Shown here in pieces: positions 20,150-63,200 of a stretch of 64,000 bases of DNA. Under the pieces are notes generated by a model that did not search any database, was not told the origin of the DNA, and saw only the letters and a program-made list of their open reading frames with translations. The stretch spans positions 1,466,001 to 1,530,000 of the forward strand of contig AP031354.1 of NCBI GenBank assembly GCA_037833965.1, given 5' to 3'. Positions within the stretch are counted from its first letter, which is position 1; each line of letters begins with the position of its first letter. The translations under genes were made by a program, and so were the position numbers. Source of the DNA: Marchantia polymorpha subsp. ruderalis. Its lineage: Eukaryota; Streptophyta; Marchantiopsida; Marchantiales; Marchantiaceae.

Positions 20150-20310
20150 AGAAGAGTGCGATACTTTGTTTGATGGTTGGAAAGATGAGCGAATTGTGAG
20201 CTATACAAGGCAAGAATAAAACACGGTGATATGACAGATTTTGCTTGATGCTTTTTAGTTGATAATGATTTGCAGAAACATCCGCTATGATTATCTTCTT
20301 GCAAGAAAAT
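20150..20310 (-). repeat. Dispersed repeat, block S2 copy 1 (inverted)
   Basis: Read on the minus strand this matches about 27370-27460 and 38730-38790 (plus), with shared stretches such as AGCATCAAGCAAAA and TCATATCACCGTGTTTTATT. The family is unknown to me. Confidence 0.6.
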
Positions 20311-20349
20311 GCTGGTTTTAAAGAATGTGAATCTCGAATTCTGGATAAC

Positions 20350-21590
20350 GACAGTTATTAATTTATCTTTTCAGTTTCGTTCTTGAAATTAACTCGGGTG
20401 ATCCCGACCAACTTAAATAATCAGGCACTGCTGTGAAAAACAAGTTAGGCGCAAAGCACAAGTTATTTGCTTTGTGAAGTCTCATACTGTAACAAAATTT
20501 CCGCATTGCTTTCAGTCGTCTCTCTAATGATTGCAATTCCAGATCAGATGTTTGAAGGTCTGATAAGGTGCTATTATCGTCTTGTGGATGCGCTTGGTCT
20601 AACAGTTCATGCATTTTGTGTCGGAGCCAATGATGAGATCGATTCGCCATTGACTTTCTCAGGGAGAAATCTTTCAAGAGATTCTATACGAGTTCTTGGG
20701 AGACGGCATCTTCAGTTCTGATGGTGAACTATGGAAGAAGAAAAGAATAGTGATGCAGGCTGAGGCTCAGCGATAGGTGCTTCGTGATCACAGCCTAGTA
20801 ACCTACTGGAAGAAGGCTCATCTTCTCGCCTCCATCTTTAGCAAGGCCTCTTTCTCTGCAACGTCTCTCGATATGCAGGTACTGCACGCTCTGTCGACAG
20901 TTTGATCCCTGAAATATCCAAGCTCGGTCTCGAACTGTCTTCTGTATGAAAATTGTTCCAAGTTTCATTTGACTAGTTACTTGAAATCGTCCTTGACACC
21001 AAGGACGATTTCAAGTGTCAGAGCCTTTACCTAACTTCTGATCGGTCCTGAGCGACTTCACGTTCTCTAGATCGAACAGGCTTTGGTTGCAAAATTTTTC
21101 TGCAAAGACTCACTGGTCCAGTTTCTGCCACTGATCATGTCTAGGATCTTTTTAGAAGAATGACCCCCGGACAATGGTGTCCGAGGTTGCAACTGGAGTG
21201 CGACTGGGAGCACTGTCTCATGAGCTGCCATACGTGCCATTTCAATCAGCATTCGATGAGGCAAACGTGAATATGTGCTTCATAGTGGCTGGACGTGACA
21301 GCACCTCATCGGTACTCGTATGCTTCATCTACTACTTGGTGAGCAAACCTGAAGTCGCCGAAAAGATTTATGATGAGCTATGTGCATTCGAAGCCCGGCA
21401 TCAACGGACTCCAACTCTGAATTCTGGTAAATATGCATACATCACAATCGACAACATCCACGAGTTCGTTACTGTCTTCACAGTGTTCAAATCAAAACTT
21501 TCTCCCGTGTCGCACAGCTCTGCTTCTATAACGGTGCGTCAGTTTGGAGAGAATGATCTACCGTCAATATTGCAGTCTCGCAATAATTTT
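20350..21590 (+). pseudogene. Truncated CYP704-like P450 copy (copy C)
   Basis: Homologous to P450 copies A and B but in opposite orientation. It keeps the end of intron 2, exon 3 (20663-20878, 216 bp as in A and B, beginning with the GEIFQEIL-type segment), the start of exon 4 (from about 21146) and most of exon 5 (AGRDSTSSVLVCF oxygen-binding helix at about 21290). It stops at the exon 6 acceptor (about 21580). Defects: an in-frame TAG in exon 3 (AQR*VLRD), a small inversion in exon 4 that shifts the frame, and a deletion of about 0.5 kb joining exon 4 to exon 5. Exons 1, 2, 6, 7 and 8 are absent, so the ExxR and haem-binding motifs are missing. It cannot make an active enzyme. Its 3' end abuts the left arm of the DREB/PME inverted repeat. 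Confidence 0.88.
20979..21016. repeat. Perfect 17-bp hairpin, 4-nt loop, in P450 copy C
   Basis: 20979-20995 is the exact reverse complement of 21000-21016. Copy A has only the left half, so the right half is a local inverted duplication. Confidence 0.85.
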
Positions 21591-22017
21591 TTTGCCTTAA
21601 AAAGCAAAAAAGTTGAACTATGTTAGCATGCAATTTGAGCCGGAAATCAATGAAACAGGTGTTAAATTTTTCGACAGCAGTTGGTTTCAAACCGTAAGGA
21701 CTGAAAGAGACACGTAAAACCCGACTCATACCACCGACGTTTATTCGTCGGAAGTGGTGTGACAGGTGAGAGACCATATATATCCACCAGTAAGCGAGGA
21801 ATAGTCGGTGGCGGATATATTAAGAATAGGAAGAGGGAAACAAAGGAAACTCATAACGATGTTGTTTCGTCGTACCTGGATGTTGGAACTCTATAAGTAT
21901 TGCTGTCATTACCAGAGATCCGACACAAGTATTCGGGAAGAGTTGAAATCAGTCTCGTGCACGGGTAGGAACATCTTGTTGGACCTTGTTCTTGATCGTT
22001 GATAAGTGTAGAATGAG

Positions 22018-22736
22018 TCTTTCCTAAAGGAGTAGCAGAGCTTCTTCGAGGGGCAAGGGAGGCTTCGAAAATTCTTCCTGCAAGTACAAGTGAGTGCGCC
22101 AGCGGACTTGGGACAAGTGGGTAGCTGAGATTCGGGATCCAGGGAAAGGACGTAGAGTGTGGTTGGGTACGTTCAACACCAAGGAAGAAAGCATTACAAA
22201 TTTTTGGTCCAAATGCTCACTTGAATTTGCCAAATTCTCGCATCGTCACGAAGTCAAATCAGAATACAGTTTTTAAGCCATTGTTCTCCGTATGTACAAG
22301 GATTTTGTTTTTGAAAACATATCCATATCCTCAAGTTTCTAAGATTACGGTGAGTTATCATCTGGTTCATTTCCTATCATTTTAAAAATAAATGACAAGT
22401 GACAAATATTCTATTTAAGGTAAATTTTATTTGTATTCTCAAATGGTACTATGATTCTATTACTGTTATGTGATCAGGGTGTCCATGTTATTGTGTTAAA
22501 GCTGAGAATGTGAAAACTGAAAAACATTTCAGTGAATACGTTGGCGAATTTTGCACGAGTTCGAGCGATGATAATTGGCTACAAGTTCCACCACTAAGAC
22601 GTAGCACAAGAAAATTGAAATAAATATCAATAAAAATTCTGAAGAATTGTACACGGGTTCGTTTGTGGAAGAGCAACCCGAATTTGACTACGAATTCTAT
22701 TTAAATAAAATCTCATTCAAATACGACGCATTCAAA
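22018..22736 (+). pseudogene. DREB-type AP2/ERF transcription factor, broken copy (left arm)
   Basis: The frame gives a basic serine-rich stretch, then GKGGFENSSCKYK, a stop where a Gly codon should be (GGA to TGA, at about 22090), then [16 protein letters not shown] and [14 protein letters not shown]. This is the first part of an AP2 DNA-binding domain of DREB2 style. The start codon region is altered, and about 20 bases encoding the AYDR segment are deleted relative to the right-arm copy, which shifts the frame. Further downstream an acidic stretch (FVEEQPEFDYEFYLN, about 22660-22700) is conserved with the right arm and looks like the old activation region. In the living family the protein binds DRE/CRT elements in stress genes. 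This copy is a pseudogene. Confidence 0.85.
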
Positions 22737-23086
22737 TAAAATAAGATGACTTCTAACTTCCTTCAATATGATTTTTTCGATGGCTGCAATAAACTCAGAA
22801 GGAGATTGTGAACTAACTTCACCAAGAATTTCAGGATTTTCATCTGACGACAATGAGGTTTTTTTGCCACTATCTCTGTACATGTCACGCGAGGTCGGTT
22901 TTACTGCTTGCGGATCTCTGACAGTTTCGAGGGACCAGTGTAGTTCCCAAGCAAGTGAACTATCAATAGTCACAGTGTCATGGTTGATCGCTGGTCGTTC
23001 TATCAAAAAGAAACGAATTAAGGCGCCATCCACGTCTCGGTTGCGGCCACAATTTTGACGGCGAGGGGAAACGATAGTACTTCAAC

Positions 23087-23221
23087 TCACAGATAGATCC
23101 CGGAGAAAATTTGACTCGTCACTCGCTCTTTGTTCGAAGTGGGTACAGCATCAACCGCTTCCTGAACTGTTGTGTAATCTCCACTTCCATCTAGACTTAT
23201 GTTTATCACCGTCGCGGCCAA
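23087..23221 (-). pseudogene. Pectin methylesterase fragment (left arm)
   Basis: On the minus strand the segment encodes DGSGDYTTVQEAVDAVP, the conserved start of the mature pectinesterase domain, and ends at the same TGA (GIYL*) as the right-arm copy. The break therefore predates the inverted duplication. Only about 40 codons remain, and the catalytic Asp/Asp/Arg region is absent. Confidence 0.8.
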
Positions 23222-24402
23222 GCTGCAGGCATCGTCCCCGAACAGTAGAAGCATCTGGCAACAAGCAGAGAGAGCTTTAGAGAGAAATATGAGGGTAATT
23301 ATAAATCAACTCACACTGATAGTTCCACTGACGTGTGATGGGCTCTGCAGCATACAACGATGGCAAAATGGATCACACAAGAAATAAAAGGCCAGACTAT
23401 TTCCTCTTTTTACTTCCACAAATAGAGCATTTTCAAATGTACTTTCAATCTGATTCGTGGAGCAGATGAAATTGGGGAGAATTAGTTTTTCATTTGTTGT
23501 AGTATATCTTTCGTACAGTACCTACGGATTTTGTTTGTTTTCTTGCTATTTTCTTTTCGTTTCAAGGCTTGATCTTGATGTGATCTACCTGAAAAATCAC
23601 TAATGTGTTTAAGTAAATTATTCTTTTGATTTCTACTCATTAATGTTTTGATAATGAAAAATATTATTGTGGCTGAATTGTACCCGCGACGGTAACATGA
23701 TGATCCTTTGAGTGCAGCCGAGTTGTCTATCACCGTCTGAGTCAGACTAGTATCGAGAGCAATATTGTTTTCGCGATTTTTGAGTTTTGGACCCCCGGCC
23801 TAGAAGACCTTGGTGATTGGGCTAAGGAAGTGGAATGGAGCAATATAAATCATCTACATCAATAGCAGCTGCCGACAGCCCAGGAACCTTTTCCAGCGAT
23901 TGAATCCGGAACCACATTTTGATCGATGACAATCAAATTTGAATGGATGAATGATTTCACGGTAGCTTGTTCAGCTGTGTGCAATAGTCTGAGTTGTGGT
24001 CATCAAAAGACTTTCTGATTGATACACTGTGAATTTCATCGTTGGGTGGAGTGTGAGTTTCAAAGAATTCTAGTGTCGCTTTGATTACTAATATATAGCT
24101 TTCACTGCTGGAGGTGTGTAAACATAACAAACATGGAAATGAGTATTCTACAATTGAAATGGTTATTTAACCTCTCTCTAAAGCTAGTGTTCTACAGGAA
24201 GAAAAATTAATTCTTTCATAGTAATTTTGATAAATGTTGTGGAATATCTATTCTTAAATCAAGATAAATGTTTGTGCATAAGAGTATGCATTGGAAAAAT
24301 ATAACGCTGTCTGAGCGTATTCAGATCTTTAACATGCAAACTATACATCGAGTGAACTCAAGATGATTGCAAGATTTAATAAATCTGCAATCATCTTAAT
24401 CT
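23222..24402. other. Spacer of the inverted repeat
   Basis: About 1.2 kb between the arms, AT-rich, with no supported gene. Around 23680 it carries a short stretch (GAATTGTACCCGCGACGG) that is also found, inverted, at the borders of the P450 A and B duplications (about 28235 and 55290). 24280-24360 matches 28140-28225 inverted. Confidence 0.5.
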
Positions 24403-24536
24403 TGGCCGCGACAGTGATAAACATATGTCTAGATGGAAGTGGAGATTACACAACAGTTCAGGAAGCGGTTGATGCTGTACCCACTTCGAACAAAGAGCGA
24501 GTGACGAGTCAAATTTTCTCCGGGATCTATCTGTGA
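24363..24536 (+). pseudogene. Pectin methylesterase 5' fragment (right arm)
   Basis: The ATG at 24363 opens a 57-codon frame: a hydrophobic segment like a signal peptide (AIILILAATVINI), then CLDGSGDYTTVQEAVDAVP, which matches the start of the pectinesterase domain, then a TGA at 24534. The catalytic residues are missing. The 5' flank (24280-24360) is repeated inverted at about 28140-28225, as if the promoter was also copied. The first 40 bp of the frame contain an almost perfect inverted repeat (24361-24396). Confidence 0.75.
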
Positions 24537-26103
24537 GTTGAAGTACTATCGTTTCCCCTCGCCGTCAGAATTGTGGCCGCAACCGAGACGTGGATGACGC
24601 CTTAATTCGTTTCTTTTTGATAGAACGACCAGCGATCAACCATGACACTGTGACTATTGATAGTTCACTTGCTTGGGAACTACATTGGTCCCTCGAAATT
24701 GTCAGAGATCCCCAAGCAGTAAAACCGACCTCGCGAGATAGTGGCAAAAAAACCTTATTGTCGTCAGATGAGAGTACTGAAATTCTGGGTGAAGTTAGTT
24801 CAGAATCTACTTCTATTATTGTAGCCATCGAAAAAATCATATTGAATGACTTGAGGTAGGAAGTTAGACCTCAACTTATTTGAATGCGTCGTACTTGAAT
24901 GCCATTTCATTTAAATAGGATTCGTAGTCAAATTCGGATTGCTCTTCCACAAACGAACCTGTGTACAATTCTTCAAAATATTCATTGATATTTATTTAAA
25001 TTTTCTCAGGCTCTAGTGGTGGAACTTGTATCTAATTATCATCGCTCGAACCCGTGCAAAATTATTTAAAATATTCACTAAAATGTTTTTTAATTTCCAT
25101 ATGCTCAGGTTATAACATAACAACATAAACAGCCAGATCAGATAACAGTAATAGAAACATAGTACCATTTGAGTATACAAATAAACTTTACCTTAAACAT
25201 AATATCTGTTACTAAAATGATAGGAAATGAACCAAGTGATAACTCACCGGAATCTTGTAAACTTCACTAACTTGAGGTTATGGATATGTTTTCAAAAACC
25301 AAATTCGCGGAAATACAGAGAACAATGACGTACAAACGGTGTTTTGATTAGACTTAGTGGCGACGCGAGAACTTGGCAAATTCAAGTGAGCATTCGGACC
25401 AAAAAATTGTAAAGCTTTCCGATCGTAAGCAGATGTAACTTATTCTTTGGTGTTGAACGTCCCCAACCACACTCTACGTACTTTCCTAGGATCCCGAATC
25501 TCAGCTACCCACTTGCCCCAAATCCGCTGGCGCACTCCCTTGTACTCGCAGGAAGAGTTTTCGGTGACTCCCTTGCCCTTAGAAGAAGCTTTGCTGCTCC
25601 TTTTGGAAGACATGTCTCACCTTTGCATAACCTTTGGGTCATTCTGCATGTATCTCGATCGTTGATACATGTAAAGATCGAGAACAAGGTCCAACAAGAC
25701 GGTTCCACCCGCGCGCGAGACTGATTTCAACGCTTCCCGCATACTTGTGTCGGATCTCTTAATGATAGCGATATTTATGGAGTTCCAACATCCAGGGACG
25801 ACGAAACAACATCGGTATGAGTTTCCTGCGTTTTACTCTTCCTATTCTTAATATATCCGCCACTGCCTCCTCCTCGCTTACTGCTGGATATATACGGTCT
25901 CTCGTGAACACCTGTTACACCATCGTGCGACGAATTGACGTCGGAGGTGGTGTGAATCGGGTTTTAAGTGTCTCTTTCAGTCCTTACAGTTTGAAACCAA
26001 CTGCTCTCCAAAAATTTAACACCTGTTTCATTAATTTCTGGCTCAAACTGCATGTGAACATTAGACGGCAAGTGTTCAACTTTTTTGCTTTTTAGAGCGA
26101 AAA
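24403..26103 (-). repeat. Right arm of the large inverted repeat
   Basis: Reverse complement of 21585-23221, with the same order of parts: PME fragment, acidic-tail region, DREB-like pseudogene. If the locus is transcribed through, the two arms would pair into a dsRNA stem of about 1.6 kb. Confidence 0.88.
24885..25613 (-). pseudogene. DREB-type AP2/ERF transcription factor, broken copy (right arm)
   Basis: ATG at 25613-25611. The frame runs [15 protein letters not shown], then [20 protein letters not shown], then [12 protein letters not shown], and meets TAA at 25442-25440. After the stop the same frame continues the AP2 domain with [20 protein letters not shown], so a single nonsense change (GAA to TAA by family consensus) cuts the domain. 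The GVRQR and WLGTF strands and the terminal helix are otherwise well preserved. A basic Lys/Ser stretch upstream is a likely nuclear signal, as in DREB2 proteins. The acidic C-terminal segment FVEEQSEFDYESYLN lies at about 24930-24970. Its stop differs from those in the left copy, so the two copies decayed separately. Confidence 0.86.
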
Positions 26104-26360
26104 AGTTTTTACAAAGAATTTGCAACATTCGTTGCCATTTGAATGTTGTTGTCTTCGACTACGCCAGTTTTCTACATCCTCTTCGAAAGAAGTGAAAAAT
26201 CTGAGAGTACCATGAAATATGACCATGCTAGGAAAAGCATTAGGACAGATTACTGAAAAAAATTTGTTTAACAGTTCAAATGCTAATCCTCGACGGATGC
26301 ACCTGTAGCCTTCAATGCGTCCTGTCATTTGTGGCTCGTTAAGGCATCTTCACTGGTTCT

Positions 26361-26414
26361 AGCAAATGTCACTACGCTCTCACAGATTTACGTCAGAGCG
26401 TAGTGACATTTGCT
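26361..26414. repeat. Perfect 20-bp hairpin, 14-nt loop
   Basis: 26361-26380 is the exact reverse complement of 26395-26414. A second short hairpin (CTTGGTTC with GAACCAAG) follows at once. No coding context. Confidence 0.85.
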
Positions 26415-26509
26415 CTTGGTTCACCTCGAACCAAGAGTTCAGCTCGGTCCCTCGGTTCACCTTGAGCCTTTCAAATCCTTACCTGGAGGTATCCTAACAA
26501 ACTCAGTTT

Positions 26510-26960
26510 GAAGGGATGCGGCGCTTAGGCTACCAGTCTATGCCAAACAACACCTGACCTTACTGACCTTCAATATTGGCTTTTGTAGGAGGCAGTCGAA
26601 TTGTAGACGGAGGAGTTGCAGTAAAATATCCAGCCTTGAAGACGGATAGGTCCATCGTGGATTCTGGGGTGGTATTCGGATTACCATTGGTATCTTTGTC
26701 ACTGCCTAAGGCCATTTTCGAGGCTTGAATTACGATGTACCTCATGTGGTTGCCTCGTCAACTCCAGCCCCGTGTAATTTTATGAGACAAGATTCCATCT
26801 TATTTACGAACGTGTCTCATGGCTCTAGTTGCCTTAATTTATATGAGTACATCATGATCATCGATCCTCTTGGGGATTCTGTAGTTGCCAGCTGCAACTT
26901 TTTCGTAGTTTTCACGTACATTTTTCATAATATTCGAAATTCGGATGCCCCATAGCGCAT
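26510..26960. repeat. Duplicated block S1, copy 1
   Basis: Matches 35850-36245 in the same orientation, with shared stretches such as CTATGCCAAAC, CTGACCTTCAATATTG, TTACGATGTA and CATGTGGTTGCC. On the minus strand both copies keep a similar short peptide (M[RS]YIVI-AS-M-LG), which hints at a decayed exon. I do not recognise the family. Confidence 0.7.
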
Positions 26961-27299
26961 GGAATTATATGATGCCTTAGATTCACTGAAAGTAGAAGGA
27001 AGGTTGACTGCTAAACTCAATTCTCACTCAAACAAGTCCACTTTTCGGTCGGGTTAGGGTCACACTGATTGTGCAGCTGTTAAATCCTGGGGCTTTTCTC
27101 CTAAATGAAATATGTACATAAAAAAAGGCTGACTGATCTCTTAAGGCTACTTTTCAAAAGGCTGGTTTTCCTTTGGTCAACTTTCTAGTAGAAAATAAGT
27201 GTAGTAAATTCTTTTGGACGATACTATCCAATTAACAAACAAGATACTCGACTTTTGGTCGCAAAATCTACACTCCGTATATCGCGTGTGCTTGAGTAC

Positions 27300-27480
27300 A
27301 TTGGATATGTACATCAGGGAATCAAGAAGAACGGCGCGCTGCTTAAAAGTATCCCCTCTCTGTAGTAATAGCGGATGTTTCTGCAAATCATGATCAACTA
27401 GATAGCATCAAGCAAAACCTGTCATATCAACGTGTTTTATTCTTGCCTTGTCTCTGAATCGTTTACGAATTGAACACGAG
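27300..27480. repeat. Duplicated block S2, copy 2
   Basis: Matches 38615-38800 (shared AAGAACGGCGCGCTGCTTAA and AGCATCAAGCAAAAC) and, inverted, 20150-20310. Confidence 0.65.
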
Positions 27481-27960: not shown

Positions 27961-28700
27961 TCTGAAAGTATATGTCTCATCTCAGACGTCACACGTACAG
28001 AAAAAAATAAAAATTGTTAATGATATTGCATGAAATGATTAACAAGTAAATTTGCTTGATACTAATCATATTAGCAAGAATCATCTAGCTTATTCATGAT
28101 GAGTTCTGTACTCTTGCAATCAACATTACAAAAATTTCTTAAGTTCACTCGATGTATAATTTGCATGTTAGAGATCTGAATACGCTCAGATAGCGTTATA
28201 TGTTTCCAATGTATTTTTCTGAATTGTTCCCGTCGCGGGTACAATTCAGTAACTTATTGTGCATGTTCAGTTACTCACAGCATGTCTATGATTGTATTTA
28301 TATTTCATGCAGCTATATCTTAATTTCTTTTTGTTGATCCCTGGATTTAATTGCCTGCGCTTCAGAACACATCAAAAGGAATTTTACATAAGTGCAGCTA
28401 TCGATAAGCTGCTCCCACGTAAGAACACTGACCGTATAATGAGATGATGTTGATTTATTACATTTTACTAACCTATTGCATTGATATCGTCAGTAAGAAT
28501 TTACTTCAGCTACGATAAACTATATAGGTCATAATCTATTGGTTTATAGTTACTTTACAGTGGACCATGCACCAGTTCAGCCGCATCTACGATTTGAATC
28601 CTCACTTCTATCGATGTTTAGATGAATGACTAGTGCTGTATTCCGTGGCCAGTGAGAGGCCAATTCAATCATCAATTTGTTGGTACCTTGGCTACTTAGT

Positions 28701-31700
28701 CTAGTTGTGTTGCGCTCGAGCACTAGCGAGATCAGGTGACGAACGCCTCGAGGCAGTGATGTGCATGCCATCCTTCATCATGAGGATGGCAGACATTCTG
28801 TAGCCGATCTGGTGCCCCGGGACGGACTCGAACTTGAAGAAGCGGCACAGCACAGCCGTCACTATCTTCATTTGCAGGTACGCTGCATCTTTCCCCAAGC
28901 ACGAGCGAGGTCCAGCCTGCGAATCGCATTCTCGAGAATAATCCGCATGAGAAGTCGGGTAGTCAAGTGCAAGGCACGATTGAGCCCAAATTAAAAGGGG
29001 AGTGTTGCATGTAATGAGAGAGCATAGGTAGCAAAGCTGGCCATTGGAGGTCTACCTGGAATGCAGTGAACTTGAAGGGCGAGGCGCCCTCGAAAACGCC
29101 TGCTTCGTTGAGCCATCTTTCAGGTCTGTATACTGCAGCATCCGGTCCCCATAGAGTCTGCAGCCGTCCCATCGCGTATGGAATGTATACGACCAAGTCT
29201 CCTTTTCGTACAATGTGTCCGCTCGGCAGAACATCGTCTTCTAGCACACCCTTTACGTCCTGGCGAGGAGCATCGTCCAAAGAGACTGTGAGTCAATTCC
29301 TGCTCACCGATAACTTCAGCTGGATGTCTAAAATGCATGATAAGCTAGTTATTCGACCAAAGAGCGCGTCCTGAAATTCTTTATTTCCAGTTTATAGGGA
29401 TTCTCTACTAAGCCATAGTACATAGTCTCTGCGTGAGTCCGTGTATCAGCATGATAATTATCACTTACTGCTGATCCCTCACCTGTGGAACGACCGGATA
29501 TAGCCGAATAGTTTCTGTGATGGCAGCATGCAGGTACTGGAAATTTGAAGTGGTACTGGTGACTTCCTCGAAAGTCAAAAGGTCAACGAACTGCTGGATT
29601 CGCTCGCTGAACTCGCCCTCTGATGCGTGGACTGCAGTATTGACGGTCGATCAGAAAAGCAGCTCATTCTTTTCAAAACAGAGGCACCTTTATAGATGCA
29701 GAGCTGTGCGACAAGGGAGAAAATTTGGATTCTGAACGCTGTGAAGACAGTAACGAACTCGTGGACGTCGTCGATTGTGATGTATGCATATTTACCAGAA
29801 TTCAGAGTTGGAGTCGGTTGATGCCGGGCTTCGAATGCACATAGCTCATCATAAATCTTTTCGGCGACTTCAGGTTTGCTCACCAAGCAGTAGATGAACC
29901 ATGCCAGTACCGATGAGGTGCTGTCACGTCCAGCCATTATGAAACTAAGCACGTCGTCACGGATAGATTTGTCTGTTGCATTCTCGTCCAAGGACATGTA
30001 TCTTGATGCCAAGTCTGCTCTTGTCTGCCGGTAGACTTGTATCAGTAACTAAAAGTTCGGGTGACTCTCGTGAAATTTGCACAATTTACTCGAGAATCAA
30101 AGCATCCATACACGAGAATCTCCACCAAAACACTACTACGTCAGCCTTCCTGCAATCGCCTAGACTCAAGGGACAAGAACCAAAGGAAATCATAGCATCT
30201 GTTTAGAGTGAGTTGTGAGCTCACAAATTTCCCTTCGTCTTCAGGCTTCGTTGATTGATTGGATTTGAATCTGGATTTTGCTTCAGCCATATCTCGTCTC
30301 CTGGTCCGAATCACATCGTAGAGAAATGTGTCCATGTACTGGACCGCACCTTTAAATCGGGCTTCTAAGCCTAAGTTCAGGAATCTTTTGACTCTCCAAA
30401 ATGGGTCGACGAATCTTGCATGCACATTCACGTTTGCCTCATCGAATGCTGATTGAAATGGCACGTATGGCAGCTCATGAGACAGTGCTCCCAATCTCAC
30501 TCCAGTTGCAACCTCGACAATGGTGTCCAGGGTCATTCTTTTAAAAAGATCCTAGACATGATCAGTGGCAGAAACTGGATCAGTGAGTCTTTGCAAAATT
30601 TTTTGCATCCAAAGCCTGTTAGATCTAGAGAACGTGAAGTCACTCAGGAACGATCAGAAGTTAGGTGAAGGCTCTGACACCAAGGACGATTTCAAGTAAC
30701 AAGTCAAATGAAACTTGGAACAATTTTCATACAGAAGACGGTTCGAGGCCGAGCTTGAATATTTCAGGGATCAATCTGTCGACAGAGCGTGCAGTACCTG
30801 CATTTCGAGAGACGTTGCAGAGTAAGAGGCCTTGCTTACGATGGAGGCGAGAAGGTGAGCCTTCTTCCGGTAGGTTACTAGGCTGTAATCACGAAGCACC
30901 TTTCGCTGAACCTCAGCCTGCATAACTTTTCTCTGCTTCTTCCATAGTTCACCATCAGAATTGAAGATGCCATCTCCCAAGAACTCGTATAGAATCTCTT
31001 GAAAGATTTCTCCCTGAGAAAGTCAATGGCGAATCGATCTCATCATTGGCTCCAACACAAAATGCATGAACTGTTAGACCAAGCGCATCCACAAGACGAT
31101 AATAGCACCTTATTAGACCCTGGAACATCTGATCTGAAATTGCAATCATTAGAGAGACGACTGAAAGCAATGCAGAAATTTTGTTACACTATGAGACTTC
31201 ATGAAGCAAATAACTTGTGCTTTGTGCCTAACTTATGACGCACAGCAGTGCCTGATTCTTTAATTTCGTCGTGATCACTCGAGTTCATTTCAAGAACGAA
31301 AATGAAAAGATAACTGAAGTATCTCAAAACATCAGTTCAGGCATCAATCCTGGCATACAGCAGATCTTGCTTCTTCACATTCCTAGAGCAAGAAGGTCCA
31401 ATGTAGAGGAATATCTCGGCAATTAGAGGGCTGAACGATATCAATGACGAAAGCTGTGTTGAAGACAGAAAAATGGCAACAAGAGAAGTTTTGACAAACA
31501 CAGACACGAGACTTTGCAAAAGCTGAAACTCAGGCTCAAAAAGCCCTTCACCACAGTGTTAATAGATTTATAAGAGAAGCCATCTAAGGGATGAGTTACC
31601 TTCGGATAATTCGAAAAGTTGGTCTTGAGAATGTATTCACAGACAGCTGGATCGGCGGTGTAGAAGTAGGTGTTTGTGGGCATGGGTGCGGCAAATGTGA

Positions 31701-32414
31701 GACCTGCTCTTTCGAAATTTTCCAAGAGCCAGTCATGCATTCTGTCATAGTTTAGCAAAATCTCCGGAAGGGCACCCAGAACTGGCCAAGCTTTTGGCCC
31801 TTCTCCTTCCTGCACATTCATTTAGTTATCAAACATATTGTAGAATGTATCGGGAATTCTGAATCAGACCACTATTAGAGAGATCTGCCACTACGGCAGA
31901 GACTACTGCAAAACACCTCTACTGATATTGGTTCACCATTCCTCGTCATTTTTTTCACAATCACTTCAGGTACATGCAGCGAGACGAGGAAGCGTTTGAT
32001 GGAGATGGCATGAAAACAACAAACTCGGCAAACACGGAGCCATGCAATCAACTTCTGGAGCTGTACCGTTTTGGACCTCATCAGGTTATTCACTGGTGGA
32101 GGATTCATGGAGGGCACAAAAAACCTAGCGTCCTTCTTCCTCTGCTTCTCTTTCGCATTACTAGAGCCGTCTTTTGCTACCTCGGTCGAAATGAAGGTGT
32201 CACTGAAGGGGCACGATTCTCCGTTGTTGTTGGGAGTCGCATTAACGATAGTAAGCTGAAGGGGCCTTTGAGAACGGCCCCATCGAGCGGTCGAGCTCGA
32301 TGGATCCGATGGCAAGGCGAGCATGTGCTTCCATTGATTCGGAGAGGATTTGGGCAGATTGCTCAAGTGTGCATGTACAGCAGCTCCTTCCCCAGGCAAG
32401 TACATGGACTGCAT
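28701..32414 (-). CDS. Cytochrome P450, CYP704-like (CYP86 clan), copy A
   Basis: Exons in transcription order: 32414-32067 (exon 1, tentative), 31809-31600, 31013-30798, 30551-30225, 30024-29796, 29631-29483, 29259-29056, 28916-28701. Exons 2-8 all have GT-AG borders with agreeing phases and encode 516 aa. Landmarks: WPVLGALPE at the start of exon 2; exon 3 with LGDGIFNSDGELWKKQR; I-helix AGRDSTSSVLAWF; K-helix ExxR in TETIRLYP; YRPERWL; haem loop FTAFQAGPRSCLGKD, the style of CYP704 and its kin. These enzymes hydroxylate fatty acids at or near the omega end for cutin, sporopollenin or wax, at the ER. Exon 1 (116 codons) lacks a membrane anchor; it is proposed because it is in phase and conserved in frame with copy B. 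If it is wrong, translation may start at the ATG at 31821. A TATA box lies at 32781-32789. Confidence 0.9.
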
Positions 32415-32780
32415 CTGGGCTTGATGTAGTCCTTCCCTGTAGTGCACAGACTCTCAAAGCTCGAGAGTAGAGTTTTCTCAAGTCCAGACGAATAAATTTG
32501 AGCCGAGTCAAATTGTACCAAAGGTCTGAATTCACTTCTTGGAGCTTGTGCAAATCGTCCCAGATAATTGTGCATATGGAAGTAACTGAGAAGATTATGT
32601 CCACGAATCAGATGTCAAATTCTACGATGGCAATGAACAAGGGCTATGATCGAGAAGCAAATGAGGTTTGCAGAGATGATCGAGTAGGGAGGAGGAAGAG
32701 AACAACTAGTCGCCAGAACAATCTCAATTCCGCGCGACTAATGTCGAACAATGAGAAGTATTTGCCATTCAGAACTTGGC

Positions 32781-32789
32781 TGTTATATA
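32781..32789 (-). promoter_or_regulatory. Putative TATA box of P450 copy A
   Basis: TATATAACA on the minus strand, about 370 bases before the tentative start codon. It is preserved with its surroundings upstream of copy B (59829-59837). Confidence 0.5.
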
Positions 32790-32869
32790 CACCCGGAAAA
32801 CTTCTCGAAATGAACGAGACAACGATTCTCTGCAATATCCAGAAAAAGATTCTTCGACCAATTTTATAG

Positions 32870-35840
32870 TCATGTTTACTTGATCATTATTCCAGTTTGC
32901 ATCCATACCTTCATTGTTTGCTATTTATTAACTGACCTGATGATCGAAGACGGAGTGGTTTATGTGGAAATAATCTCCATGACGTCATTGCCTCTATAAA
33001 TACTCCCACACGAGAAACAGGTTTTCGATTGCAAATCTGAAACAGTGGAATTTAGAATCAGCAGCAATGTTCCGGTTATTTGGGGATTACGAGATTTCCA
33101 GGAGATGGAATTTTCAAACATCCATTTTCCTCATGAGTCAAATGGGTGTGGACTTATGCTGGACCGATCTATTGGATTTCATGTTTTTGGCCAAATTTCA
33201 GGCTTTTAGTGAAATCAAAGCTAAAACAGCTGGAAGTAATGATGTGATGTAAAACTCTGCTGTGAATTCACAGTGTTTCAGTCTTAAATTAGTGCCAAAA
33301 CACCGTGGAAAACACACAGCGGGACCCAGGAAGGAAAGAACAACTGATGGTAATGCCTGGCAGCCAAGTACATCAGTAGAACAGCTCAGCTCAGCTGATG
33401 AATGGGAGGCTACTATGACCATCTTCCAACTCATGCTAGACGAAATTTGACCCAATTACCTGTCAAACTGTTTATTTTACCTCGAATAGATCCTAACACT
33501 CAGGTATGTTTGAAGGAGTGCAAAAGTGGGATCAAAGGGCGAGAGAAGAAAGAAGAAGGTCCAATACGGTGATACTATCAGGTGAAATTCCATTTGACTG
33601 CAGGGTCAATGGTTGATCGTAGAGGAGAAGCCCCAGTTCCCCAAATAAGCTAAATGTTGGGAAACTTTCGTTGTGCTGTGTATGAACATCTAGCTGAGAG
33701 CTGCCTCCTCACAATTGTGTGTAACCGTGCATGTAGCGGCTTTTTTTAGAACTGTGACGCTGGAGGAGAAAATTACGGGGAAAATGTCAGTCCTCATGGT
33801 GCCACAGCAGCTCTGAGCAGTCTGGAAGCACCTGTAATCAAGAAATTGCGCCTGTAATTTAACTTCAAATTGTCAAGATGAACAGTTGACTCCACAACGC
33901 TAGGGGCTGGAGACGAATGTAAAAAGCTCTCTGCCGGAGAAAACTCCATTCCACTAGGATTCAGGTTACTATGGTTCGAATGCAAGGTGCTTGGGATAAA
34001 AAGAGCCAGTTAAACTCGGATGTGTTTGGGGTTTAGTCCCTAGATCCAGCTTTTAACCTTTCAAGTCTCATGCCGGCTTAACCCCACTCTTCAAACGCTG
34101 TCACCCCTGCATCAAATAATCATAAGAATTTCTTGGGGAGCTTATCTTAGGGAGCCAAAATTTAGCTCTCTATGTTCTAAGTGGGTTTATAAAATTCATA
34201 ACCCCCTAGCCTGAGAGTAGAATACAAACCAGTGTGCAGTTTCTTCTCGAAAAGACATTGTGTATTCAATGAAATTTAACTTCTATAATCTTGTTTAATC
34301 TATAAAAAAAAGATGGTTTTCTCAACAAGAAGTCTTTTGGCTGATAAGGTCCGTAATGGACATCTACTTAATTACATCAAATCGTATGATTATGATGGTA
34401 ATAATAATATAATGCTATTCAAACTTCGTTGAGACTGATCAGTTTGTCTTTCATGAGTCGGTTTGCCTCCCCAAGATATCCATTTGATCCATGTTACAGT
34501 ACAGAAGAAAGTCCGCTCATTGAAGAGATATCAATTTTATTGAACTAGTGTCATTGCACTACGTGTATCAGTAAACCACCCATTTCTTCCACGTCTGTTT
34601 GTTAATTAGCTTCGAGAAACCTTTCCTGGCATGAACGGTCAGCTCCCCAAATTTTTTTCCTGTACCCGGAAATTTTCAACCCATTATGAATATATGATCT
34701 AGAGCTACTTCTTCATGATCAGACTTCTGTAGTGGACAGAAGAAACATAGATTCTTAGTAGCTTAGTGATACAACATTGCTGATGAGAATTAAGCACAGA
34801 TTTCATGTTACTTCAAGATACTACATCCGATAGCAATATGATAAAACAGACTTACAACAGGATTGACTGCTTGGATACTTGAATATACGCATGTTATTTG
34901 AATTCATAGACATGGTTTGCTTTTCTACAATGAATCTCATGTATTCTATGCGCAAATAATGTCAGTTCCTGCTACAAGGGCGACACACGGGTACAGTGTA
35001 ACGGAATTCCTGGAATTCAGGAACCAGTGAGGAATTTATTCGGATGTGGGCTTTACGTGTGCAGATGGGCATGGCGGTATGAACGTACAGCTGTATAAAC
35101 TGAACTCGATTGATCTACCGAGAGAGTGGGCATCCACTCCACAAAATTCGACATTGAACATTAACCAGATTGCTATCAGATCTTTTACTTTTCCATGTAT
35201 TTGTTCTGATGTGGAAGAACCAAGCTGCACAACTCTTCGTGTATATTCCTGTTTCGAAATTTTATGCAGGAAATAAAACTGAGTCTCACGAGCGATCTTT
35301 GCTAATGTTTTTGGATTAAGATTGAGGTTTTATCTGATTTAAATAGATTTAAATAGATTTTAACAATGCGCCATCACTGATCTGGAAAGGTGCAAGGACA
35401 TGCAAATATCGTTAGGCCATTATAATTCGGGGCTTCATAATTAAAATAATTGACTACAAACAAGATACAGAGATAAGAAAACCTATCTGATGAGAAGCAT
35501 GCTACATTGCATCCAGTTTGTTTTTCCCTCCGACAAACTTGTTCTACGGGGTCTATAACTTACGAACGGATATTATACGCACTATTTCCACGTTTTGATT
35601 ACACTTCCGCATGCTTTGCCCCATATTAATTTCACTTTGCCCGCCGCTGACTTTAGACCCGGAGCAATTTTCACAGTAACTTAAAGTTGATTTGTAGTCT
35701 CCTCTCGTATCACTGAATGGTGAAGCAATAATGGAAAGAGTCTTAGACCTTTGTCACGTATCGAATCTCTTAAGACCCAAGCATTTCCAAGAAACTCAAT
35801 TGGTAGTCATTCTAGCTTATATTGTGGCATCAAGTTCATA
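32870..35840. other. P450 A upstream region and intergenic
   Basis: 32940-33250 still matches 59900-60245, which marks the outer edge of the P450 segmental duplication. The remainder (33.3-35.8 kb) has no supported gene. Confidence 0.5.
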
Positions 35841-55280: not shown

Positions 55281-55778
55281 TAAGATGTTTCCGTCGCAGG
55301 TACAATTCAGCCGCAGTAACTTCTTGAGCAAGTACAATTACTCACAGCACGTCTCTGATTGTATTTACATTTCAGAAAAACTATACCTTCTTTTCATTTT
55401 TTTGTTCCTGGCTTTATTTGCTTTTGCTCCTGAACACATAAATAAGAATTCCACGCGTGTGCAGCTATGGGTAACCCAGGAAAGATTACTAACCGTATAA
55501 TGAGTTGACGTCGATTCACTTTATATCATTAAACGGTTGCAGTTATGTCGTAGGCAAGCATTTGATTAAGCTACGATGAACTATATAGGTCATTTGCCGA
55601 TAATCTACTAGTTAAGAGCTGATTTTATTGTGTACCGGTTCAGCCGCATCTACGCTTTGAATCCTCATTTCTATCGATGACTGGATGAATGACTACTATC
55701 GTGTTCCGTGGCTCATGAGAGGCCCATTCAATAATCAATATGTTTTAAATTTGGCTAGTTGGTCTAGCTGTGTTGCGA

Positions 55779-58700
55779 TCAAGCACGCCTCGAGGCAGTG
55801 ATGTGCATGCCATCCTTCATCATCAGGATGGCAGACATTCTGTAGGCGATTTCGTGCCCCGGGACGGACTCGAACTTGAAGAAACGGCACAGTACAGCCA
55901 TCACTATCTTCATTTGCAGGTACGCTGCATCTTTCCCCAAGCACGAGCGAGGTCCAGCCTGCGAATCGCAGTGTCGAGAATAATCCGCATGGTAAGTCGG
56001 GCAGTCAGGTGCAAGGCACGATTAAGCCCACATTAGAAGGGAGTGTTGCATGTCATGAGAGCACAGGTAGCAAAGCGGCCAGCTTTGCCAGTGGAGGTTT
56101 ACCTGGAATGCAGTGAACTTGTAGGGTGAGGCGCCCTCGAAAGCGCCGGCTTCGTTGAGCCATCTTTCAGGTCTGTATTCTGCAGCATCCGGTCCCCACA
56201 GATCCTGCAGCCGCCCCATCGCGTATGGAATGAATGCGACCAAGTCTCCTTTGCGCACAGTGTGTCCGCTCGGCAGAACATCGTCTTCTAGTACACCCTT
56301 GACATCCTGGCAACGACCATCGTCCAAAGAGACTATGAGTCAACTCCTGTATACTCATAACCTCTGCTGGATGTCTAAAATGCTTGAGAATGTAGCTTGT
56401 CGACTGAAGAGCTCGTCCTGAAATTCTCTATTTTCAGATAGACAGTGAGTATCTACTAAGCCATAGTATAAACTCTCTCTGTGAGTGTCTTAGTATTAGC
56501 TTGATTGATCACTCATCCCTTACCTGTGGAACGACCGGATATAGCCGAATAGTTTCCGTGATGGCAGCATGCAAGTACTGGAAATTGGAAGTGGTACTGG
56601 TGACTTCCTCGAAAGTCAAAAGATCAACGAACTGTTGAATATGCTCGTTGAACTCGCCCTCCGAAGCGTGGACTGCAAAACTGACGATCTGTTAGAAAAG
56701 ATGCTAATTTTCTTGGCGCATGGTTATATGAGCAGAGCTGTGCGACACGGGAGAAGGTTTGATTCAGAAAAGATGTGGAGACTTGACGAACTAGGCGACG
56801 CTGCCAAGTATGCATATTTACCGGAATTCAGAGTTGGAGTCGGTTGATGACGGGCCTCGAAGGCACATAGCTCATCAAAAATCTTCTCCGCGACTTCAGG
56901 TTTGCTCAGCAAGCAGTGGATAAACCATGCCAGTACCGATGAGGTGCTGTCACGTCCAGCCATTACGAAACTCAGCACGTCGTCACGGATGGATTTGTCT
57001 GTTGTACTCTCGTCCAAGAACATGTATCTTGATACCAAGTCTGGTCTGGTCTGCAGGTAGAATTAAATCAGTGGCTGAAAGTTCCCGTGACTCTCTTGAG
57101 ATTTGCATAATATTCTTGAGAATAAAGCCATCCAGACAGGAGAAATTTCTTAGAAAAACTACTACGTGCCCCTTCCTGCGATCACTTCAGGGACAAGAAC
57201 AATCGCAAATCATAGAATCTTTTTGGAGTCAGTTGTGAACTCACATTTTCCCCTTCGATTTCATGCTTAGTCGATTGACTGGATTTGGATCTGGATTTTG
57301 CTTGAGCGATATCTCGTCTCCTCGTCCGAATCACATCGTAGAGAAATGTGTCCATGTACTGCACCGCATCTTTGAATCGGGCTTCTATGCCTATGTTCAG
57401 GAACCTTCTGACTCTCCACAGTGGGTCGACGAATCTTACATGGACATTCACGTTTGCCTCATCGAAGGCTGATTGAAAAGGCACGTCTGGCAGCTCATAT
57501 GACAAGGCTCCCAATTGCACTCCCGTTGCAACCTCGACAATGGTGTCCAATGTCATTCTTTTGAAAAGGTCCTAAACATGATCAGTCGCAGAAACTGGAC
57601 AAGTGAGTGTTTGTAGAATAATTTGCAACAAACGCCTGTTAGATCTAAGAGAATGTGAAATCGCTCATGAACAATGAGAAGATAGCTAAAAGCTTTGACA
57701 TAAAGTACGATTCCCAGTCACTACTTATATAAAGGTTGGAACAAATTTCCGACAAAAGACAGTTCAAAACTGAGCTCTTATTTTTCAGGGAGCAATATGC
57801 ACCTCTCGTGTATGACAGAGCGGGCAGTACCTGCATTTCGAGAGACGTTGCAGAGTAAGAGGCCTTGCTAACGATGGACGCAAGAAGGTGAGCCTTCTCC
57901 CGGTAGGTTACTAGGCTGTAATCGCGAAGCACTTTGCGCTGAACCTCACCCTGCATTAACTTCCTCTGCTTCTTCCATAGTTCACCATCAGAATTGAAGA
58001 TGCCATCTCCCAAGAACTCGTTTAGAACCTCTTGAAAGAGTTCTCCCTGGCATAGTCAATGGCAAATCGATTTCGTAAATGACTCGAGCACAGAAAGCAT
58101 GAATAAATAGACCAAGGGCATCCACAAGACGATCATAGGACCAAATCAGGCCCTCAAACATCAGATCTGAAATTACAATCTTTTAATAGACAATTGAAAG
58201 CAACGAGGAATTTCTTCTTACAATCTTAGACTGCACAAAACAAATAAGTTGTGCTTTGTGCTCAACTCTCTTTGCACATCAGTGCCTGATCGTTTCATTT
58301 GGTAGTGATCACCCCGAGCTAATGTTAAGGAAGAAAATATTCAGTAAAGTATCTCACAAGATCAATTCAAAACAATTGACATGCCTGGCTTTCAGATGAT
58401 CTTGCTTCTTCACATTCCTAGAGTAAGAAGGTCTATCAATCTTGACGAATATCTCGGTGAATCGAGGGCTGAACAAAATCAAAGACGAGAAGAATACTAC
58501 AGACAGTAAAATGGAAATAAGACTAGGATTGACACACATACGAAAGTTTGCGCCAGCTGGAACTACCAGTCAAAGAGCCCTTTACAAGGCATTACAAGCG
58601 TCATTCAAAAATTGACTGTCAAGTTGAGAGATTTATAAGAGACGCCATTGAGAGGATGAGTTACCTTCGGATAGTTCGCAAAGTTGGTCTTGAGAATGTA

Positions 58701-59460
58701 TTCGCAGACAGCTGGATCGGCAGTGTAGACGTAGGTATTTGTGGGCATGGGTGTGGCGAATGTGAGACCTGCTTTTTGGAAATATTCCAAGAGCCAATCA
58801 TGCATTCTGTCGTAGTTTAGCCACAGCTCTGGCAGGGTACCCACAACTGGCCAAGCATTTGGCCCATTTGCTTCCTGCACATTCATTACTTTATCAAACA
58901 TATTGTAGAATTATCAGGCAACTCTAAGAGAGATCTGGGACTTCAGGAACGACAACTGCAAACACCTCTGCTGACATTAGTTCTCGATTCCTCATCAAGA
59001 TTTTCAGTCACTTCAGGTACACGCATGTACATGCAGCGAGACAACGAAGCGACTGCTGGGGATAGCTCGAGGAACAACAAGCTCGGCAAACAAGGAGCCA
59101 TGCAATCAAGGTCTGGAGCTTTACCGTTTTGGTTCTCATCAGGGAATTCCACACTGGTTTCGCAGGCACGAAGAACCTAGTGTCCTTCCTCTGCTTCTCT
59201 TTCGCATTGCTAGAGCCATCGTTTATCACCTCGGTCGAAATAAAGGTGTCACTGAAGGGGCACGATTCTCCGCTGTTGGGAGTCACATTAACTATAGTAA
59301 GCTGAAGGGGCCGTGGAGGACGGCCCCATCGAGTGGTCGAGCTCGATAGATCCGATGGCAAGGTGAGCATGTCCTTCCAGACATTACAAGAGGAACTTGG
59401 AGCATAATTCAAGTGTGCCTGCACAGCAATTCGTTCCCCGGGCAAGTACATGGACTGCAT
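55779..59460 (-). CDS. Cytochrome P450, CYP704-like (CYP86 clan), copy B
   Basis: Exons in transcription order: 59460-59125 (exon 1, tentative), 58874-58665, 58046-57831, 57571-57245, 57050-56822, 56672-56524, 56306-56103, 55958-55779. Internal exon lengths equal those of copy A to the base (210, 216, 327, 229, 149, 204), so the two are paralogues by segmental duplication. Exons 2-8 give 504 aa with WPVVGTLPE, AGRDSTSSVLAWF, TETIRLYP (ExxR), YRPERWL and FQAGPRSCLGKD. All splice sites are intact and no internal stop was found. The last exon ends at a TGA after ASRRA, 12 residues earlier than copy A, well past the haem region and probably harmless. Exon 1 (112 codons) is again soluble-looking and in frame. 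A conserved TATA box lies at 59829-59837. Expected role: fatty-acid omega or in-chain hydroxylation at the ER; the substrate is not known. Confidence 0.9.
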
Positions 59461-59828
59461 CTGGGCTTGATGTAGTCCTTCCCTGTAGTGCACAGACTCT
59501 AAAAGCTCGAGAGTAGAGCTTTCTCAAGTCCAAACGACTCAATATGAGCCGAATCAAACTGTACCAGAAAAACAAAATTCACTTCCTGAAGCTTGTGCAA
59601 CTCGTCCCTGCTTATCATGCAAGAAAATTGTATATCGAAGTTCCTTAGAAGATGATATAGATCTCAAAATTCACGATGGCAACGAGCAAAGACTATGATC
59701 GAGAAGCAAATGAGGCTTTCTGGAATGATTGAGGAGGAGAAAGAAGAGAACAATTAGTCGCCTAAGCAATCTCAATGCTGCGCGACTAATGTTGAACTAT
59801 GAGACGAATTTGCCATTCAGAACTTGGC

Positions 59829-59837
59829 TGTTATATA
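59829..59837 (-). promoter_or_regulatory. Putative TATA box of P450 copy B
   Basis: TATATAACA on the minus strand, same context as upstream of copy A, about 370 bases before the tentative start codon. Confidence 0.5.
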
Positions 59838-60170
59838 CACCCGCAGAAACTTCTCGGGATGAGCGTAACAACAATTCTCTGCCTTATCAAATTTGTTTTC
59901 TTTCTATTAATTTACCTGTTGATCGAAGACGCGGTTCTATAGCTGGATTAGATCTTCATGACGTCATTGCCTTAATAAAATACTTCCACACAGGAAACAG
60001 TTTTTATGGGAAGGCTGGAAAATTGGAAATAAAGATCGGCAGAAAAGTACCAATGCTCTGAGATTTGCACTATCACGAGATTTGCTGGAGATGGATCTAC
60101 AGACGTCCATCTTCCTCAGAAGTCATAGGGGTGTCGACTTATCCTGGACCGATGGACTGGCTTTTGTGTT

Positions 60171-60207
60171 CTTAGCAAAATTTCGGTTATACCGAAATTT
60201 TGCTAAG
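60171..60207. repeat. Perfect 17-bp hairpin, 3-nt loop, upstream of P450 B
   Basis: 60171-60187 is the exact reverse complement of 60191-60207. The homologous site upstream of copy A (about 33187-33215) does not form this hairpin. Confidence 0.85.
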
Positions 60208-60249
60208 ACGAAAGCTAAAATAGCTGGAAAGAATGACATGAAGTCAACA

Positions 60250-63200
60250 TCGACTGTGTTTTCATTCAGTGTCTTGGTATCTAGCAGATCTACCGCCCTC
60301 AGGCGGCGCCAGATTTATGCGGAGTTCAAACTGTTCAACAAACGACAGCTGAGACTCATTAGATCGTCCGACATCCCGGTCTAGATCTTGTCGAATTTGG
60401 GCTCAAATTGTTGATAGACATATGCTGCTTTTCTTCAGCAAGCCTGATCCCATAATCCTTATAGAAAGGAGAGGGACGGTCTTACTTGAAGTTCGGGTCA
60501 GTTCAATGAATCCCACGCCTCGACACCTTATTAACTCGTGTAGAGTTACCCTCCCATTTTAGAGGCGGCTCTGATAAAAATCAGGCGAGATCTTTGCGAG
60601 GTCCAGAAGTTATGTCATCACAGGTCATTTGACCAAGAATTGACCATCGTGTGAAAAGAATGACACTGGAGTTGGCACCTTCACCAAAAAAAAAATCCTT
60701 TCCACGTGCAAAGGAATGCACTGAGATTATATGCTGCGCAACTGGATGAGTGCTCGTCCAGTCTCTAGGGCCAAAATCATGGGGACACACTTGGAATCGG
60801 CTTTTCCTCGGACCGAATGTTGGTCCTAGGTTTGTCTTCAAGTCATTTATGGGTAGTTCATCGCTGTTCTTTTCACGTTCAGATTCGGTTGTTTTATGTT
60901 TAACTTTTGAGCCTTTTCATAATTACAATATGGAATATACGATAGGACACAGACCAAAACAGGGTAGTCTGCTGTTGCAAAGAAAAGGTAACGAGGAAAA
61001 TCTCAACACAAGGAGCTAAGCGCAGGAATCTTTTTAGCGTCGACCCTACTGAAACTGGAGGTGTTCATTCGATCACAACTTACAACGATCATTCGATCCT
61101 CGAAGGTACTCGTAGCTTCCAAAAGTGCCTCCAGTTGGATCCACAAGGAAGAGAGTTCATGTGTTTAGAGACTTCAATGTTCAAGCAATTGGATTCGGCC
61201 TTCAGCAGCATACATTCGTGGCCATTTTGCTCGAGATTTGAGAGTTAACACAAGTCAGCGTAGCTCTTTCAGCATAAAAAGCATATGAATCTGCAAAGGT
61301 GGGCTCTCAGTTCTGCGATGGCTGTATCAAACTTTGACATTTTATAAATACAAGTACAAAACGGCACTTTTCGTTGATTTGACATTGATTAACTCTCGCA
61401 TGCTCACAACAGCGTTGTCTAATAATCAGGAAGATTATGCTGTGTTCTTTTAGTGTAAAACTCAAATTTGAGAGTGATAGGATGCCATGCTCATCCATTG
61501 AACAGATGCGGTACATTTTTCAGCGTTGGAAAACTAATTACTACATTGCCGACATCTTACTTTCCTATCACAATTTTAAAGATTACGTTCCATGGTAAGT
61601 CACTCCTGAGATTAATATTACGCATTCTGATGCACGAGGACAATACAAGGTACGTGCAGCTCTTCCTTTTGGGCAGCGAGAGTAGGATCATTATGTGTCA
61701 TGGAGTGCATATCAATGCGTTGACATTTCAGAATAGAATGAGATCTTCTGAATAGTATTTGTTGGTACAAGCACATAATTCTTCATAAAAATAAGAGTGA
61801 ACACATTTGTGTCCTGAACGAGATTACATTACACGGAGTGTATCTCCGTGAGCTATCACGGAGTTAAATCTAAAAGTTTTTTTCGTGACCCAAATGCGAG
61901 TTGCAAATTAGACTACACACAAATACAGTTTGAAAGATACAGATTTAATGAACCTGGAACCAATAAAATATTAGAGCCTTTCAGAATAGAGATAACTAGT
62001 CGCTTTGTCCATAAAAGTTGAACCCGTGTAGCTAAAATTCTTGTCAAAATCCGCTACGGAAGCTTTCTGAAGAAGCTGTGTTAGAAAGTAAAACATAAAA
62101 CTCCTAAATTATATGGAAATCTTCTCCTATTGCAGTGATCTTGTATGATGAAAGTAGTAGCAATAATGATCACTTTACGCTGAAGACATATCTACAAGAC
62201 CCGTTCCGCTGTAGGATCTTTAGTTTGGAGAGTTAGAGTAGTTTTAGTTTTGCTTTGGAAGTGCTCTTCAGAGGCAGATTCGGCCGGAAGAGGGTAAAAC
62301 TGTTAAATAAAGAATTCAACGTGGCCAATGGAAGAAGCTTGGCGGGTAGCTCGTGAGAAGGTAAGGGCAGCAGAGCGCAGGAATTCAAGAGAACCTTAGT
62401 CTAGACATTCGGCATTTTACTTCGACATTCGACAAATTCTCTACCCATACAACACTGTGCGGGGAGATTGTGCCAGTTGTTACGATGAAGCCAACATCTT
62501 ACACGCAAAAAAAGTCAATCCCATAGAGGAGAGAGAGAGTGCTGGGACGCAAAGATTATAATTACAAGCCGCTAATCACAAAGCTTACCTGGACCAACAA
62601 AGATTTCGCAAGGTTGCAGGGAAGAGTAGTATATTATCTTGCATGATTTTGGGGCTGTGTATGTGGAGATCCGTACGAAAAAGCCCAGTAGGGGAAGGAA
62701 GATTGAACTGGGTGGCGACCATCCTCAGTATTGGGATGCAATACTTTGGAAGAATAGATTGGTTTGGGATTGAAATGAATACTAACTCCACACGCGATTT
62801 GTGATCGACCTAGTCCGTTGTTTAGATGGCCCAGCGACAAGAGCACTGATTGAAGGAGCTGGAGGGATCTCAGCGTTCAATAATCACAAAGTTATTACTG
62901 TGCGGGCACTCGCAAGCACTCGGAGTGATTCCTGCAAGCAAGAATGCAAAGACACAAAAACTCATGTCGAGAAGCATCGTTTGCGTTGCAAGCTCATTTG
63001 CATTTGGACCTGCTTGCGAGATATAGAAGTGGGACAAAATCACCATTTGGTATCTCTGATCCGGAGATGCTACTATTATCTCGTTGCTAGGTGTAACCTG
63101 CTCTCTAAGTCGATGTTTACAGAGTTCCACAAATTTTCAGGACTTTGAGACCGAGAGACAAACTAATTGGTGACGACACTCTACATTGATGTCCTGAGGT

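Follow-up and report, generated by a model that had tools for sequence, protein, structure and literature searches.

A diverged inverted repeat of AP2 and pectin methylesterase gene fragments with a probably recently homogenised inner end in Marchantia polymorpha

Inverted adjacent pairs of paralogous pseudogenes are known from rice, where the two members lie on opposite strands less than 2 kb apart, descend from one parent and give rise to hairpin small RNAs (PMC2708354; this and the other papers are cited from excerpts). One rice example forms a 185-bp duplex of 83% identity with a 1,283-nt loop, and the criteria applied there ask for paralogous pseudogenes on the two strands, no more than 2 kb apart, with a stem of >100 bp and a loop of <2 kb (PMC2708354). 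Here we describe an inverted repeat of AP2 and pectin methylesterase (PME) gene fragments in Marchantia polymorpha subsp. ruderalis. It lies in a 64,000-nucleotide stretch of contig AP031354.1, which we call the window (C5:1466001-1530000; positions without a chromosome prefix are those of the window). With arms of 1.64-1.71 kb and a spacer of 1,178 bp, it falls within the structural limits used for rice (PMC2708354). The inverted repeat is real, old on the outside and recently homogenised on the inside, and we read the locus as an inert relic of several DNA rearrangements, with a probability of about 0.78. Searches of the same genome covered 241,466,482 bases in 9 contigs. Judged by title and start of abstract, no paper among the open PMC hits listed deals with this locus; other literature lay outside that search.

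The repeat is built from the following parts.

21582-23222, plus strand: arm A, 1,641 bp, in local alignment with the reverse complement of 24401-26110 (self-BLAST E 0.0)
24401-26110, minus strand: arm B, 1,710 bp, covered end to end by the same local alignment
23223-24400: spacer between the arms, 1,178 bp, including the continuation of arm A PME exon 1 (23228-23278) and a dispersed repeat (23281-23395)
22759-22902: block separating AP2 from PME, with matches at four further genomic sites (one of them beginning at 22780) that all stop at 22902, just before PME

Self-BLAST joins the arms at 82.3% over 1,766 columns, gaps counted, and its E-value of 0.0 rules out a chance origin of the similarity. 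This geometry agrees with the sequence-only reading, an earlier inspection of the letters, which had described two opposed arms of about 1.65 kb around a spacer of about 1.2 kb, each arm holding a broken AP2 gene and a PME fragment; both pieces are recovered in each arm, by AP2 profile and by alignment to a PME gene. From the outside inwards, an arm consists of about 0.4 kb of AP2 5′ flank, the AP2 gene, its 3′ flank, the block at 22759-22902 and the 5′ end of PME in the opposite direction. Among at least 42 and at least 41 genome matches, only the two arms themselves span a whole arm. The block has a fifth, shorter match (22780-22866) in the stretch L033, and an own-genome DNA search places a 90% copy of the dispersed repeat on C3 and a 76% copy on C7.

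Aligning the arms to measure their divergence, as had been proposed, yields an overall figure that hides a sharp step, because identity is not uniform along their length. Over the outer ~1.3 kb, 150 of 1,263 sites are mismatched (11.9%) with 19 gap events, and transitions and transversions stand at 82:68, a ratio for which no control was computed. The inner end differs strongly, and a short palindromic sequence adjoins it on the arm B side.

22882-23222, arm A: near-identical inner tract, 341 bp, mostly PME, whose partner begins at 24401; 7/335 mismatches (2.1%) and 1 gap
24360-24397: quasi-palindrome of 38 bp at the junction of arm B and spacer, found as a self-match in the own-genome DNA search

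The step at ~22882 is significant (Fisher p=1.7e-9), and a 335-site tract so poor in mismatches arose in none of 20,000 permutations. The claim that the repeat is young is consequently not supported for the outer arms, which are 12% diverged with their 19 gap events, and holds for the inner 341 bp only. Nor is the inner tract intrinsically slow to change, since comparison of arm A with a PME gene elsewhere on C5 shows 34 differences in 371 sites, and the intron taken separately has 22 in 183 (12%). Because intron divergence reaches 12% against 2.1% mismatch between the inner arms, separation from the PME gene appears to date to about the same time as separation of the outer arms, and the inner arms seem to have become alike much later. 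This pattern points to recent arm-to-arm conversion behind the inner 341 bp.

The ends of the PME pieces suggest how such an exchange may have come about. The piece of arm A extends to 23278, into the spacer, and that of arm B ends at 24401, next to the quasi-palindrome. The neighbouring stretch recurs inverted near 28137, and there, on visual comparison, only the left half of this palindrome has a counterpart. We propose that a DNA break at the inner end of arm B would have been repaired by copying from arm A, with invasion in the shared AP2 3′ flank and copying through PME, and that a template switch would have ended the repair and left the quasi-palindrome. The PME part of the pair would be much younger than the remainder because the inner end of arm B was, on this proposal, rebuilt from arm A. 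The resulting locus would have no selected function, although it could fold into double-stranded RNA (dsRNA) if transcribed.

The PME fragments trace to a gene of the same family.

22906-23278, minus strand: PME-derived segment of arm A, holding a portion of intron 1 together with exon 1 as far as a few codons after the start codon; 90% identical to C5:1315348-1315718
24401-24717, plus strand: corresponding PME segment of arm B, shorter by ~56 bp; 91% identical to C5:1315404-1315718

The parent-like, multi-exon PME gene spans C5:1315348-1317408. Taken jointly, its pieces span the 298-position pectinesterase profile from position 3 to 297 without a stop in any matched piece, the first and last individually scoring just below the family cut-off, and we infer that this gene works. 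Just after the residues ...GIYL, both fragments (arm A 23085-23090, arm B 24533-24538) and the gene carry the hexamer GTGAGT, which contains an in-frame TGA. We read it as a 5′ splice donor, the next matched exon of the gene coming after it. The shared PME stop had been taken as a mutation older than the duplication; a nonsense mutation is rejected here, as the donor is also present in the multi-exon gene, and the TGA, being part of that donor, dates nothing. A retrocopy is likewise rejected: the fragment includes an intron and is thus a copy made at the DNA level.

Both AP2 genes are broken, each in its own way.

22017-22340, plus strand: broken AP2 gene of arm A, with TGA at 22091-22093, ~23 bp lost near 22187 and the start region missing
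25270-25613, minus strand: broken AP2 gene of arm B, with one TAA (25440-25442) inside the AP2 domain and the domain frame open on either side

Against a Pfam cut-off of 33.3 bits, the AP2 profile scores 39.2 bits in arm B and 32.5 bits, just below the cut-off, in arm A, with one stop in each; the first 57 aa of the arm B gene match AP2 at 4.6e-9. Two further frames of arm sequence (108 and 122 aa) have no Pfam match up to E 1. The disabling stops do differ between the arms, as had been stated, arm A having the TGA and arm B the TAA on the minus strand. Elsewhere, the genome holds at least 33 AP2 profile matches, and domains free of internal stops occur in other copies, including those at C6:1.362 Mb, C6:4.239 Mb and C5:1.294 Mb. 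The DREB class named in the earlier label "DREB-type" is not confirmed, the best of five solved-structure matches being AtERF1. The residues that we take to be diagnostic are mixed, V14 presumably being DREB-like and D19 ERF-like. The arm B stop may be older than the A/B pair, because it sits in a block of three substitutions shared with a pseudogene ~45 kb away (C5:1446490); most other copies are without this block. At this codon the copy L042 also carries a TAA, set in other surroundings, and arm A is deleted there.

Further inverted and partial copies surround the repeat.

20205-20293, plus strand: left copy of an outer inverted pair, 89 bp, 92% identical to 27363-27451, its axis about that of the arms
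27363-27451, minus strand: right copy, partner of 20205-20293
20358-21577, plus strand: cytochrome P450 pseudogene adjoining arm A, an inverted partial copy of the P450 gene sequence at 29630-31318

No third copy of the 89-bp pair was found in the genome search. The intervals between this pair and the arms, 20294-21581 and 26111-27362, are nearly equal in length and show no likeness: blastn returns the outer pair only, and tblastx adds matches of just 16-19 aa at E 0.21 or worse. The P450 pseudogene matches 29630-31318 at 91% and 89% identity, a divergence similar to that of the arms, and a frame of 156 aa matches Pfam p450 at 2.3e-5. Its source sequence is carried by a 5-kb direct duplication (28225-33276 and 55286-60272, 78.5%), of which 20358-21577 is an inverted, partial third copy. 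The junction at ~21577 between P450 intron tail and AP2 5′ flank recurs 30 Mb away on the same chromosome (L034 4919-5350, C5:31752919-31753350), where the match is limited to the AP2 5′ flank and does not take in the AP2 domain.

A second, far younger inverted repeat of 3.66 kb and 98.7% identity lies at L029/L030 (C5:1290316-1293973 and C5:1295900-1299533). At its inner edge is the AP2 gene C5:1293929-1294684, which is frameshifted past the domain relative to its relatives; its spacer contains a 959-bp self-palindrome (C5:1294948-1295905, 95.5%), and its arm a weak LOB-domain piece below the Pfam cut-off. As a candidate for a young hairpin locus, this repeat appears superior to the window pair. 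Two other AP2-family copies (L044/L045, C5:19.67 and 19.75 Mb) sit 80 kb apart in a segment that is 99.9% identical over 7.2 kb. We surveyed inverted pairs of at least 900 bp within 10 kb in 264 kb, a non-random sample made up of the window and 20 stretches nearly all picked for AP2/PME similarity or nearness. It contains the window pair, the P450 pair and the 3.66-kb pair, plus the 959-bp self-palindrome, and inverted copies are therefore no rarity in this region of C5.

How the two arms came to face each other bears on the word duplication. The inverted arrangement claimed earlier stands, whereas a direct duplication of one arm from the other is not borne out by the AP2 core. In a tree of 13 sequences, comprising A, B and eleven further copies of the AP2 stretch (L045 being omitted as near-identical to L044), the arms are not joined as sisters, the supports nearby being 46-60. 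A longer alignment of 8 sequences, from which L040, L041, L042, L044 and L048 were left out, contains a split with support 83 that places B with L039, L037, L038 and L033 and A with L029 and L035; forcing A and B together costs 7.8 log units there. These trees and the breadth of the family would suit an origin in which two members of a dispersed AP2 family were apposed in opposite orientation and then partly homogenised by conversion, an account that is compatible with an inert relic. We consider it possible but doubtful: the approximately unbiased test does not reject an A+B clade on these 8 sequences (p=0.083), the outer 89-bp pair shares about the axis of the arms, and, among the matches listed, the upstream stretch, AP2 core, 3′ flank and PME piece occur in one run in A and B only. 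One other place, C5:1446486-1448256 (L033 6486-8256), resembles a fusion: the AP2 pseudogene there, whose TAA lies in the three-substitution block shared with arm B, is succeeded by a portion of the block and then by sequence from upstream of PME, with the relative orientation seen in the arms. As its AP2 stretch is 25-36% diverged from other copies, this fusion looks old, and the joining of AP2 to PME in this region of C5 may have preceded the A/B pair.

Long inverted arms holding captured gene pieces could also mark a transposon with terminal inverted repeats, such as a Pack-MULE or foldback element. We rejected this candidate and hold it to be highly improbable, given that no target-site duplication and no shared word of at least 6 bp lie just outside the arm ends, and that among the matches listed there is no second copy with the same ends; no other match holds a whole arm, and partial matches start and stop at differing points. 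The ends of the outer 89-bp pair share one 7-bp word, as do about 1/9 of random pairs. A known RNA family is rejected as well, since an Rfam scan at the gathering threshold finds no match in the repeat and only two snoRNAs in the window, at 4.4-4.6 kb.

The remaining explanation is an active source of small interfering RNAs (siRNAs), in which the inward-facing AP2 5′ flanks at the outer ends would drive a read-through hairpin, Dicer-like enzymes would cut it, and the products would direct self-methylation or act on PME and AP2 transcripts. The capacity to form dsRNA, which the sequence-only reading had foreseen for a transcript across both arms, is supported by a structure prediction: RNAfold on 4,529 nt (21582-26110) gives -2679 kcal/mol, a value without a shuffled control, and pairs 1,473 of 1,641 arm A bases with arm B, among them 329 of the 341 inner-tract bases. 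The stem contains 13 perfect runs of at least 21 bp, the longest of which includes a stretch identical to the PME gene.

23056-23196: longest perfect stem, 141 bp, within which 23116-23196 (81 nt) matches PME exon 1 exactly

Matching genes elsewhere had likewise been expected, and useful similarity does exist, so the refutation named beforehand, the lack of any such intact gene, does not apply. Besides the 81 nt of PME exon 1, the AP2 gene at C5:1.294 Mb shares exact matches of up to 54 nt with arm A and 42 nt with arm B (73% and 77% identity, compared with 91% for the PME gene), and the two C6 AP2 genes share up to 31 and 32 nt with the arms. Domains of the machinery are also encoded, with exon-wise matches to the Dicer-dimerisation domain (three Dicer_dimer matches) and to the RdRP domain (ten matches at four places), and rice provides a precedent in its inverted pseudogene pairs with small RNAs (PMC2708354). 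Even so, the spacer of 1,178 nt is long, the share of siRNAs among small RNAs is lower in Marchantia vegetative tissue than in Arabidopsis according to an excerpt of one review, and the arms are not depleted in CpG. The ratio of observed to expected CpG is 0.99 in outer arm A and 1.06 in outer arm B, against 0.81 for the window overall, which places them at the 88th and 94th percentiles of the 1,300-bp tiles of the window. Depletion, an optional trace of RNA-directed methylation, is thus absent from the outer arms; as both values exceed those of eight related loci (0.71-0.97), we see no sign of lasting CG methylation. An active siRNA locus accordingly strikes us as unlikely. Still less probable is the idea that the inner stem renewed by conversion, with its 141-bp duplex and 81 nt of PME exon identity, keeps a dying pseudogene pair as a natural source of RNA interference against PME.

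The relic reading draws on the two broken AP2 copies, the 19 gap events of the outer arms, the identity step, the intron within the PME fragment and the undepleted CpG, as well as on the further inverted or partial copies around (P450, the 89-bp pair and the 3.66-kb repeat at C5:1.29 Mb). Several points weigh against it. Arms that parted long ago and later underwent conversion are hard to tell with confidence from a direct inverted duplication. The direction of conversion from A to B is indicated solely by fragment length, as the seven inner-tract differences, at which the PME gene sides with A in three, with B in three and with neither in one, name no donor. CpG content reports solely on CG methylation inherited through the germ line. 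Finally, the 81-nt identity common to both arms and the PME gene exceeds what permutation yields in an unplanned test (p=0.005 for the fragment in full, 0.010 for its exon part). It is the sole pointer either to constraint or to sequence exchange with PME, and uneven constraint on the gene could account for some of it.

Either outcome of small-RNA mapping would be informative. If small RNAs were found, the locus would be a dated gene-fragment hairpin of a liverwort, in which an old stem adjoins a renewed one, and would test how long such loci remain active. If there were none, inverted pseudogene pairs with good stems and targets could be said to be inert, which matters for the prediction of siRNA loci from sequence.

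Set beside known systems, the locus would be another instance of a relic type already described in rice. It resembles the rice pairs in its opposed pseudogenes, here with 1.64-kb arms of 82% overall identity and a 1,178-nt loop, and differs in that those pairs were chosen because small RNAs map to them, whereas this one is known from sequence alone; it also fuses pieces of two parent genes and has a recently homogenised inner end (PMC2708354). As in young MIRNA loci that arose by inverted duplication, the similarity of both arms to protein-coding genes extends far past a target site, but the arms are far longer, the loop is long and the repeat has no Rfam match (PMC1790633, PMC3237417). Human Y palindromes similarly consist of inverted copies with parts kept alike by arm-to-arm gene conversion; here the likeness is confined to the inner 341 bp, and the AP2 genes are dead (PMC6790999). 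Foldback priming at double-strand breaks in yeast, where repair yields inverted copies, suggests how the palindromic junction of arm B could have formed, though the likeness is one of outcome only (PMC10622511).

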